Under the pieces are notes generated by a model. The model ran no database searches, was not told where the DNA came from, and worked only from the letters and a program-made list of their open reading frames with translations. Below, one piece after another: positions 50,276 through 52,216 of a stretch of DNA of 64,000 bases (its first letter is position 1; each line of letters starts with the position of its first letter). A program made the translations under genes and the position numbers. The DNA comes from Rhizobium sp. Q54 (lineage in GTDB: Bacteria > Bacteroidota > Bacteroidia > Flavobacteriales > Flavobacteriaceae), in contig CALQAH020000002.1 of NCBI GenBank assembly GCA_943328505.2, positions 62,001 to 126,000 of the forward strand, given 5' to 3'.

Positions 50276-50343
50276 GTTTATAAAGTTTATGAGTTTAAAA
50301 GTTTAGTCGCTTTTAAACTCTAAACCCTATAACCTTTATAAAC
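50276..50343. repeat. Long imperfect hairpin between glnS and folB
   Basis: Two perfect nested stems: GAGTTTAAAAG/CTTTTAAACTC (50291-50301 with 50310-50320, 8-nt loop) and GTTTATAAAG/CTTTATAAAC (50276-50285 with 50334-50343). The repeated GTTTA units resemble in style the AT-rich arms around the S23 gene, but no ORF lies inside. It ends 19 bp before the folB ATG. Confidence 0.8.
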
Positions 50344-50361
50344 CTCCTAAACTTTTTAAAA

Positions 50362-50721
50362 ATGGGTACTATAAAACTCCAAAACATAAGAACTTTTTCC
50401 TTTCACGGCTGCCTGGAGGAAGAAGAAAAAATTGGTTCAGATTACCGAGTAGATTTAGAAATTAAAACCGATTTGAGAAAATCTTCAACCACCGATCATT
50501 TAAAAGACACTGTGGACTATGTGCTTTTAAACAAAATTGTTGTCGAAGAAATGGATATTCGTTCCAATTTATTAGAACATGTTGGACATCGAATCATTAC
50601 AAAAATATTCAAAGAAATACCTTCGGTTTCAAGGATTATTTTAGCGGTTTCAAAACTTAATCCTCCCATTGGTGGTGATGTTGAAGCCGTTACTATTGAA
50701 ATGGAAGAGTATAGGAATTAA
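50362..50721 (+). CDS. folB: Dihydroneopterin aldolase
   Basis: A 119-residue folate-pathway enzyme converting 7,8-dihydroneopterin to 6-hydroxymethyl-7,8-dihydropterin. The N-terminal IKLQNIRTFSFHGCLEEEEK, VDYVLLNKIVVEEM and LLEHVGHRI are typical of the family, and the final RIILAVSKLNPPIGGDVE contains the conserved lysine-Pro-Pro segment. It is small but full-length. No other folate genes are adjacent. Confidence 0.93.
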   Translation: MGTIKLQNIRTFSFHGCLEEEEKIGSDYRVDLEIKTDLRKSSTTDHLKDTVDYVLLNKIVVEEMDIRSNLLEHVGHRIITKIFKEIPSVSRIILAVSKLNPPIGGDVEAVTIEMEEYRN

Positions 50722-50728
50722 TATTTTA

Positions 50729-50754
50729 GATTCTTCGTTCGTCAGAATGACAAA
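50729..50754. repeat. Short intergenic element of a type dispersed in Bacteroidota
   Basis: The stretch reads on the minus strand TTTGTCATTCTGACGAACG and continues to GAAGAATC. I recall very similar strings scattered in intergenic regions of many Bacteroidota genomes; this is from memory and cannot be counted here. It carries a small ATTCT/AGAAT stem. Confidence 0.45.
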
Positions 50755-50763
50755 CTTAAAAAC

Positions 50764-51405
50764 CCTCCAACTCTACTTTAGGATTTCAAAAGCATTGTCC
50801 GGATTCGAACCTCGCTTTAATTAATTTTTCCTAAAAATTATCCATAAAAAACCTCCAATTTTCCTTGAAGGTTTCAGAGGCATCGTCCGGATTCGAACAT
50901 CACTTTAATTAATTTTTCTTAAAAATTATCCATAAAAAACTTCCAAGTTTCCTTGAAGGTTTCAGAGGCATCGTCCGGATTCGAACATCACTTTAATTAA
51001 TTTTTCTTAAAAATTATCCATAAAAAACCTCTAAGTTTCCTTGAAGGTTTCAGAGGCATTGTCAAGATTCGAACATCACTTTAATTAATTTTTCTTAAAA
51101 ATTATCCATAAAAAACCTCCAAGTTTCCTTGAAGGTTTCAGAGGCATTATCAGGATTCGAACATCACTTTAATTAATTTTTCTTAAAAATTATTCATAAA
51201 AAACCTCCAAGTTTCCTTGAAGGTTTCAAAAGCATTGTCAAGATTCGAACATCACTTTAATTAATTTTTCTTAAAAATTATCCATAAAAAACCTCCAAGT
51301 TTCCTTGAAGGTTTCAAAAGCATTGTCAAGATTCGAACATCACTTTAATTAATTTTTCTTAAAAATTATTCATAAAAAACCTCCAAGTTTCCTTGAAGGT
51401 TTCAG
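50764..51405 (-). repeat. Seven tandem 88-bp repeats carrying the tRNA-Cys 3' tail and a terminator hairpin
   Basis: The motif TTCGAAC recurs at 50804, 50892, 50980, 51068, 51156, 51244, 51332 and, in the real tRNA, at 51420: spacing exactly 88 bp throughout. Each unit on the minus strand contains a 21-nt copy of the tRNA 3' end (from G53 to U73), an AACCTTCAAG/CTTGGAGGTT stem with GAAA loop and a T tract, and a linker with an AATTTTT/AAAAATT hairpin. Copies 1 and 2 (50878-50898, 50966-50986) match the tRNA tail 21 of 21; the others have one to four or more changes. The copy nearest 50764 is degenerate in its hairpin. Confidence 0.95.
51382..51405 (-). terminator. Terminator hairpin directly after tRNA-Cys
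   Basis: In the minus-strand RNA, a 10-bp stem AACCUUCAAG/CUUGGAGGUU with a GAAA loop precedes a U tract. One base pair is G-U and would be C-A on the plus strand, so it is built for the tRNA direction. The same hairpin recurs, with small changes, in the tandem units (degenerate in the outermost). Confidence 0.85.
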
Positions 51406-51476
51406 AGGCATCGTCCGGATTCGAACCGGAGTAGGAGCTTTTGCAGAGCCCAGCCTAGCCGCTCGGCCACGACGCC
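51406..51476 (-). tRNA. tRNA-Cys (anticodon GCA)
   Basis: A 71-nt gene folds into a full cloverleaf. The acceptor stem GGCGTCG pairs with CGATGCC (one G-U), the D arm is GCCGAGCGGC-type, the anticodon loop is CTGCAAA with GCA, and the T arm is CCGG TTCGAAT CCGG. The discriminator base is U73, as expected for Cys. CCA is not encoded. Confidence 0.95.
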
Positions 51477-51492
51477 ATTATTTAATGGATAG

Positions 51493-51500
51493 CAAAAGTA
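51493..51500 (-). promoter_or_regulatory. -7 box of the tRNA-Cys promoter
   Basis: On the minus strand TACTTTTG matches the TAnnTTTG consensus and lies 17 bp upstream of the tRNA 5' end. I see no convincing TTG at the -33 position. Confidence 0.6.
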
Positions 51501-51541
51501 ACATATTATTTTATAATTAAAAATAAAATAATTAATTTCTC

Positions 51542-52216
51542 TTAATCTATCTTTTCTAAAACTTTTTTAGCGAGTTTGTTTTCATTTGGGAACCAACCTT
51601 GAAACATTAACACCAATCCAAAAACAATTAGTAAAACACTAATTAATTTTTTCATTTTTAAAATATTTACAGGTGTCATTTTACTTTTTAACTGTTTGGC
51701 TAATACTATTTTTCCAATATCAACTAAGAGATAAGTCCCAATTACAGTTGCAAAGAAAATAATCATTCTTGAAGTTTCAAGTTCTAGTTTTGGTCCAAAA
51801 GTGATTAGCACTAAAAACCAAAACAACAAAACGCCAACATTGATAAAGTTTAATAAGAATCCTTTAATAAAAAGGCTTAAATAATTGTTTTTTGTAATTT
51901 CAATAATCACATTTTCATCAAGGCTTTTTGTTGCTTTTTGTATTTTTACATAAGAAACCAAACCATAGGTTAGCATTAGAATTCCACCAAAAATATAAAT
52001 AGCAGGATCGTTTTTAATAGTTTGTATCAATCGATAACTACTAAAATAAGCAAGCGAAATAAAAACAATATCAGCAGTAACAACGCCAATATCAAAAACA
52101 AATGCTGCTCGAAATCCTTTGACAGCACTTGTTTCAAGTAGCACAAAAAAAACAGGACCAATCATAAAGCTTAAAAAAACGCCTAAAGGTATTCCTGATA
52201 AGATATCTTGTAACAT
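51542..52216 (-). CDS. LysE-family amino-acid exporter
   Basis: A 224-residue membrane protein with about six transmembrane helices. The N-terminal IPLGVFLSFMIGPVFFVLLE and central GFLLNFINVGVLLFWFLV are typical of LysE/RhtB-type exporters, with the conserved Gly-Pro near residue 20. Substrate is unknown. It lies between tRNA-Cys and rnr, all leftward, with its own start ATG after about 80 bp from rnr. Confidence 0.83.
   Translation of the reverse strand: MLQDILSGIPLGVFLSFMIGPVFFVLLETSAVKGFRAAFVFDIGVVTADIVFISLAYFSSYRLIQTIKNDPAIYIFGGILMLTYGLVSYVKIQKATKSLDENVIIEITKNNYLSLFIKGFLLNFINVGVLLFWFLVLITFGPKLELETSRMIIFFATVIGTYLLVDIGKIVLAKQLKSKMTPVNILKMKKLISVLLIVFGLVLMFQGWFPNENKLAKKVLEKID

Follow-up and report, generated by a model that had tools for sequence, protein, structure and literature searches.

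The tRNA-Cys gene of the window (the whole 64,000-nucleotide stretch analysed) is followed by an array of displaced gene ends, each lying beyond a copy of a 26-bp palindromic element, here called E, that also adjoins other stable-RNA genes in related genomes. These loci have a fixed geometry of gene, E and displaced copy, a common E, and empty counterparts at two sites. They most likely represent a family of miniature insertion units served by a putative enzyme. The original prediction, which had interpreted the array from the window sequence, is partly supported as a whole.

An 88-bp array downstream of tRNA-Cys

ARAGORN finds a single tRNA in the window, tRNA-Cys(GCA) on the minus strand at 51405-51476, which also gives an Rfam tRNA match of 50.6 bits. 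An octamer upstream of it, TACTTTTG (51493-51500, minus strand), is read from the sequence as a possible -7 promoter box of the TAnnTTTG type, which we take to be the Bacteroidota consensus. Given this strand, the array that follows the 3' end of the gene extends toward lower coordinates. Tandem Repeats Finder places the array at 50757-51426 with a period of 88, 7.6 copies and 93% matches, and a direct-repeat search of the window gives a spacing of 88 everywhere. Eight TTCGAA, the tRNA-Cys copy included, succeed one another in exact 88-bp steps, and seven extra tail copies lie exactly 88 bp apart beyond the gene's 3' end. The 88-bp tail array at tRNA-Cys is therefore real, as had been predicted.

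Each unit comprises a tRNA tail (T-loop to discriminator), a GAAA-loop terminator and an AT-rich stretch with a hairpin, an anatomy that the original prediction described correctly, down to the degenerate outermost unit. Its AT-rich "linker with hairpin" fared less evenly: the hairpin is there, but the stretch is no mere linker. Rather, it holds the conserved element E, TAATTTTTnnnAAAAATTArnTAAAG. This 26-bp motif is present seven times in the window versus 0.02 times expected from shuffles, and chance is therefore excluded. An Rfam scan of 50300-52000 returned no family except tRNA at the gathering score; unlike a repeat of the rtT/tyrT type that belongs to a described RNA family, this one matches none, and a known Rfam family was dropped as a candidate.

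Inspection of the array on the minus strand, from the gene outward, places the GAAA-loop terminator of the functional gene, which is segment F of the innermost unit, at 51374-51401 (sequence and fold). Motif searches locate the E copies at 51343-51368 (copy 1, closest to tRNA-Cys), 51255-51280 (copy 2), 51167-51192 (copy 3), 51079-51104 (copy 4), 50991-51016 (copy 5), 50903-50928 (copy 6) and 50815-50840 (copy 7, outermost), all on the minus strand. The displaced tails, also on the minus strand, were classified by tail comparison. Tails 1 to 4 (51317-51338, 51229-51250, 51141-51162 and 51053-51074) have diverged, where the two closest to tRNA-Cys contain CTTGACAATGCTTT. Tails 5 (50965-50986) and 6 (50877-50898) match the tail of the gene perfectly, and the pattern of perfect distant tails and diverged near ones thereby holds as predicted. 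The outermost tail 7 (50789-50810), beyond which the terminator is degenerate, is an imperfect match.

Distribution of element E

Of 299 same-genus genomes, the own among them, 100 carry the exact pattern AATTTTTNNNAAAAATTARNTAAAG and 199 lack it; its reversed control occurs in none. Absence of the array from close relatives had been proposed as a sign of passive duplication; the 100 genomes with E, and the further tails at relatives' tRNA-Cys loci, show no such absence. Across the family, 7 of 299 genomes from 236 genera carry the pattern (own genome included) and none carries the reversed control, which also gave no match in one further search. Among the six family matches outside the own genome, one (L240) places E in a reading frame without a tRNA. 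A chance AT-rich palindrome was dropped as an explanation on the exact reversed control of zero; relaxed searches separate the two less well. With as many as two mismatches the reversed control gave 3 matches in 40 genomes, and at up to three mismatches in the own genome (G000) it gave 10 versus 33 for E. Counting only matches with at most one mismatch, G000 has five loci with E, four of them at stable-RNA genes. The fifth, G000:C87:954-979 (L074), is an E-like site with one mismatch and no stable-RNA gene near.

A 280-bp query from the tRNA array recovered 30 tRNA-Cys loci. The check proposed for relatives' tRNA-Cys loci gave a positive answer: in 15 of the first 30 loci, one or more extra TTCGAA tails lie at the spacing of the array. 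Besides these, L011, L015, L018 and L024 hold altered tail copies. In the same-genus search with E, all 30 loci among the matches listed adjoin a tRNA (27 Cys, 3 Leu(CAA)).

The named genome collection contains at least 117 stretches with E, mostly from Flavobacterium among the 80 titles listed, with Bizionia, Gelidibacter, Paucihalobacter, Algibacter and Hanstruepera also represented. Among the matches listed, a tRNA lies less than 700 bp away on the expected side for 90 of the 118 E clusters (77 Cys, 8 Leu-CAA, 3 Ser, 1 Ala and 1 Leu-UAA), and each tRNA kind keeps a single orientation relative to E. We read the remaining 28 listed clusters as four 5S loci, seven arrays ended by the contig and 17 chance matches; titles are available for 12 of these 17, nine from other phyla and three from Flavobacteriia (L132, L142, L154). 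Within arrays, E has an identity of 0.93 versus 0.86 for the rest and is the higher of the two in 34 of 40 arrays, a difference that is biased by searching with E and is not proof of selection. Three contigs filed as Chitinophaga (L111), Nitrotoga (L117) and Bifidobacterium (L178) carry Flavobacterium-type tRNA loci with E and look like misnamed or mis-binned assemblies.

Target genes and insertion geometry

E adjoins six kinds of RNA gene. Besides tRNA-Cys, these are tRNA-Ser(GGA) (L032, L134, L188, L221, L337 and L339, some being one genome met twice), tRNA-Ala(GGC) (L118 only), tRNA-Leu(CAA) (L072, L131, L190, L207, L217, L226, L335 and others), tRNA-Leu(UAA) (L073, L179, L338, L342, L344, L346, L347 and L349) and 5S rRNA genes (L075, L077, L123, L199, L208, L223, L340 and L341). 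In an Rfam run on six of the eight 5S loci, the 5S threshold was reached by L123 only; the other 5S loci are ended by the contig near E or contain the 5S end only, and were identified by likeness to L123. A Flavo-1 RNA (RF01705) match lies at 11-120 of L340 on the minus strand, about 500 bp from the 5S-type E site.

At these targets E is placed outside the gene and points away from it, with the TAATTTTT side facing the gene. A copy of the gene starts usually 4-6 nt past E, mostly at a hairpin loop, and extends to the gene end. At most printed sites, gene end and E are separated by about 37-42 nt (Cys), 10-15 nt (Ser), 12 nt (Ala) or 24-27 nt (Leu); larger Cys distances, where checked, reflect a first E off the exact pattern or an extra stretch (L161, L167). 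Segment F, a short target-specific stretch between gene and E, is the terminator at tRNA-Cys and other sequence of 10-27 nt at Ser, Ala and Leu.

A clear copy, defined by a score of at least 24, is present in 97 of 104 Cys loci, and the seven loci below this score were excluded from the position counts. The copy begins 4-6 nt past TAAAG in 82 of the 97. Its start falls at gene positions 50-58 in 82 of 97 (T-loop 52-58), at positions 28-38 in nine (anticodon loop 31-37) and elsewhere in six, two of which (L007, L185) resemble a T-loop and an anticodon-loop start masked by an insertion. The T-loop (TTCGAAT) and the anticodon loop of tRNA-Cys are the two insertion points observed in relatives. 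At L241, E adjoins tRNA-Cys and the copy is unrecognisable. For tRNA-Leu, E lies upstream and reversed, and the copy comprises nt 1-11 or 1-12, ending at what we take, by tRNA numbering, to be the D stem/loop border. The 5S copy starts at about CGAACAGAG, presumably loop C of the 5S fold. Duplicated length differs by target: 12 nt at Leu, and about 22 (T-loop start) or 39 nt (anticodon start) at Cys.

Displaced copies also carry small palindromes of their own. A palindrome of the type TCCCGAWAGCTWTCGGGA occurs in or beside the T-loop of many displaced Cys tails (L101, L115, L146, L157, L161, L167, L185, L227 and others); none was seen in the functional genes printed beside those tails. In the displaced 5S end of L123, 3' of E, a stretch is swapped for the longer palindromic TCTCGTCTTTTATGACGAGA, an exchange that resembles the T-loop palindromes of the Cys tails.

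Empty sites, terminators and array growth

Comparison of filled and empty sites reveals what is gained. The empty tRNA-Leu(CAA) site of genome G014 (L252) reads ...TTATTGTCTGTCAA-GCCCGAATGGCGGAATTGG, and the filled site of G000 (L250) reads ...GATTTTGTCTGTCAA-GCCCGAATGGCG-[53 bp with E]-GCCCGAATGGCGGAATTGG. The filled site has therefore gained 53 bp of new sequence and repeats nt 1-12 of tRNA-Leu as a 12-bp duplication, where the flank that adjoins the gene in L252 stands on the outer side, unduplicated and unchanged, and the stretch between E and gene is new. The site is likewise empty in L253-L263. At tRNA-Ser, the flank TAAAAATGTAAAAAATGCG lies directly 3' of the gene in the empty L311, and a near copy of it lies beyond the outermost displaced tail in the filled L188; the insertion is accompanied by a duplicated tail and a single flank.

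At tRNA-Cys, L026 is empty and L216, with 89.5% flank identity, carries three units. Inner and outer terminators are of different types at L209, L019, L147, L020 and L182, and at the first three the outer type is that of the empty locus L026; a unit can therefore bring its own terminator. Outer and inner terminators are alike at 5S (L199, L208) and at several to many Cys loci, and the outer flank of the Cys loci L216, L144 and L194 already contains TAATTTTT. For like terminators and TAATTTTT in the flank, duplication plus a shorter insert is an equally good account.

The number of E per Cys locus ranges from 1 to 16 (104 loci). L010 and L082, with 91% flank identity, have the outermost unit and flank in common, and L082 has three further units that are near copies of one another, a comparison that supports unequal recombination for array growth. 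That tails cannot be ordered by age with distance from the gene, as the original prediction had noted, is accounted for by this recombinational expansion. The three gaps of gene size examined in arrays contain ordinary insertion sequences: a DDE transposase (L181), IS21-type IstA/IstB (L041) and an IS3-like rve transposase pair (L227; all Pfam, the IS3 label by eye). With three kinds of IS found in them, arrays may be safe landing sites.

A model of miniature insertion units

Our preferred explanation, at about even odds, is that the units are miniature, non-autonomous and gene-less insertion units, probably moved by a site-specific recombinase supplied in trans and built into arrays by unequal recombination. 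Such a unit would consist of segment F, the constant 26-bp palindromic E and usually 4-6 nt, and would enter a stable-RNA gene at a hairpin loop. Entry points would be the T-loop or anticodon loop of tRNA-Cys, the T-loop of tRNA-Ser and -Ala, the D-stem/D-loop border of tRNA-Leu and, for 5S rRNA, probably loop C. The gene would be rebuilt by an identical copy of its sequence between the loop and its end, with the original end moved to the far side of E; tail 7 (50789-50810) would thus be the original end of the window's tRNA-Cys gene. We infer a reaction at tRNA loops like that of tyrosine integrases, a site-specific recombination with E as the putative binding site of a recombinase acting in trans. 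By analogy with L010 and L082, unequal recombination together with gene conversion among units would then have enlarged the window array. The tails left beyond E are probably passive.

No candidate for the recombinase lies in or beside any unit examined. A tyrosine integrase gene is absent, where the units are too short to code and the gaps examined in L041, L181 and L227 contain only IS transposase genes, and no full-size element with E beside a tail was found. Viral contigs gave one E match, which falls in a reading frame with no tRNA, and no match to E plus tail; the array had no match among phage sequences. A phage or plasmid source was accordingly dropped, the one plasmid match being 55 bp of a Pedobacter plasmid to the tRNA part, and E as part of a large integrative element was dropped with one reading-frame match, IS genes and nothing else. 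Against an integrase stands the use of one E for six targets, given that a classical integrase site carries the sequence of one target. A circle of less than 100 bp is also very short for known integrases. The like terminators at 5S and many Cys loci, the Cys loci that have E but lack a recognisable copy, and the reversed-control matches of the relaxed searches weigh against the model as well.

More tentatively, the units could be a new kind of mobile DNA: gene-less, tens of bp long, with one 26-bp palindrome, and recognising the hairpin loops of RNA genes rather than their sequence. Its targets would be the D, anticodon and T loops of tRNA and loop C of 5S rRNA, and insertion would be harmless because the gene end is rebuilt.

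Alternative explanations

A mechanism that dispenses with an integrase appears unlikely to us but has points in its favour. A staggered break or a back-jumping polymerase at the loops of stable-RNA genes would make a local copy of the loop-to-end stretch, amounting to a target duplication, as E and F go in, with E serving as the end of a tiny transposon-like element or as a preferred template. The copies have their own genome's alleles (GCCCGAATGG in L250, GCCCGGATGG in L190, a CTGC T-stem in L013), as local copying predicts, although integration within a lineage would give matching alleles too. Duplication lengths that depend on the target suit ends set by structure, and one E at all targets is accommodated; we know of no transposase whose duplications vary in this way with RNA structure, which counts against it. 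Least probable of all is plain tandem duplication with slippage, which would make the array a passive amplification of the tRNA-Cys tail with its terminator. The window's exact period of 88 bp, the near-identity of neighbouring units, the span of 1 to 16 E per locus, the near-identical expansion of L082 relative to L010 and the duplicated terminators at 5S are all as it would have them. It covers array growth, but not the presence of one E at six gene kinds, which refutes it as a complete account, and it leaves the usual 4-6 nt junction and the loop start unexplained. For the first unit, the empty Leu and Ser sites, with no flank duplication, already disfavour it.

A selected RNA function is scarcely more probable. 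Under it, displaced tails or E hairpins would be transcribed and serve as decoys, as regulators or as arrays of terminators, in the manner of rtT RNA at tyrT. The roles named in the original prediction (sponge, decoy, staged termination, tail-repair reservoir) gain no support from the analysis. The reading draws on folding: window units fold better than shuffles (z = -3.7 and -3.2), the first value being that of one unit of terminator plus linker against its dinucleotide shuffles. The G000 tRNA-Leu leader is predicted to form a single long hairpin with E at its tip, where the displaced head GAAUGGC pairs with GUCAUUC in F, and leader and tRNA folded together give z = -2.9. At tRNA-Leu(CAA), complementarity between displaced head and F reaches p<0.05 against shuffled F in 10 of 13 sequences, which are related to one another; the pairs are GAATG/CATTC in L072 and GGATG/CATCC in most others. 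At tRNA-Leu(UAA), by contrast, 0 of 7 reach p<0.05 against shuffled F. Tails also decay freely and vary between units of one array, and the exact motif is missing from 199 of 299 genus genomes. Masking a displaced head would be damage repair rather than use, and we read the Leu(CAA) pairing as masking a harmful duplicate rather than serving a function.

Relation to known systems

The tyrT repeats of E. coli, which give rtT RNA, follow a tRNA gene in tandem, and each contains the terminal nucleotides of that tRNA; their unit is 178 bp, and the window unit likewise carries a tRNA 3' tail. As a description, the likeness drawn in the original prediction is fair. MITE and REP-type elements are bounded by terminal inverted repeats and make short target duplications whose length is fixed. 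E units resemble MITEs, REPs and related palindromes in being short, gene-less, palindromic and recurrent in related genomes, but E is found at one unit end only, and the duplicated stretch, from RNA loop to gene end, varies in length (12, about 22 or about 39 nt). Williams is said to have published a study on integrase sublocations in 2002.

tRNA-gene islands offer the closest comparison. In the Islander paper, these consist of an intact gene, the island and a displaced end fragment, with the crossover in the anticodon or T loop; 159 of 3919 islands have a 5' fragment, and four tandems of three or more are recorded among the 3919 (PMC4383910). Islander demands an integrase and at least 2 kb, with 2-200 kb accepted (PMC4383910), and units of the form F-E-fragment would on that description be missed because of these two demands. 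For archaeal integrases, cleavage at D/T loop borders has been considered (PMC8371274), and a survey of 20 archaeal genomes traces partial tRNA genes to integrated elements of about 9-23 kb or, alternatively, to a CRISPR spacer (PMC9897764).

E units restore the gene and displace the end fragment to the other side in the same orientation, as such islands do. Set against the island features given in the Islander paper, the fragment starts at the anticodon or T loop or the T/acceptor junction in 91 of 97 Cys loci, and E-site tRNA-Leu has a displaced 5' head, the rarer kind of fragment in islands. In contrast to the described anticodon and T-loop starts, the tRNA-Leu fragment starts at the D stem/loop border; units are tens of bp (88 bp including the tail in the window) and without an integrase, and arrays reach 16 E where Islander reports the four tandems. 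Unlike tRNA-gene islands, the same E serves six target kinds, 5S rRNA genes included. An E unit works like a tRNA-gene island, yet it is not classed as one because no integrase lies in or beside the units examined. Judged by titles and opening lines, the open-access literature gave no account of such units.

If the insertion model is true, the tRNA-gene island principle would extend downwards by about two orders of magnitude, and 5S rRNA genes and the D-loop border would join the island targets. One would then ask which enzyme carries a 26-bp palindrome from one RNA gene to another. Related Flavobacterium species with filled or empty sites, and relatives whose arrays differ in length, offer natural experiments. 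Partial tRNA and 5S copies would also be explained, and annotation tools may call such copies genes.

Other tRNA genes of the genome

A survey of other G000 tRNA genes for tail copies, which covered 32 distinct genes (30 of 34 loci) among the matches listed, found a partial copy at three: tRNA-Leu(UAA), with E, and two tRNA-Pro(TGG) genes, without E. The displaced tRNA-Pro tails, at L384 (G000:C65) and L385 (G000:C3), cover positions 60-75 and 60-72 of their genes, offset by 129 and 171 bp respectively, and no E lies between. A palindromic AGGATCAnGAAnTAATCCT stretch replaces the T-loop in both displaced tails, which are possibly a second family of small insertions.
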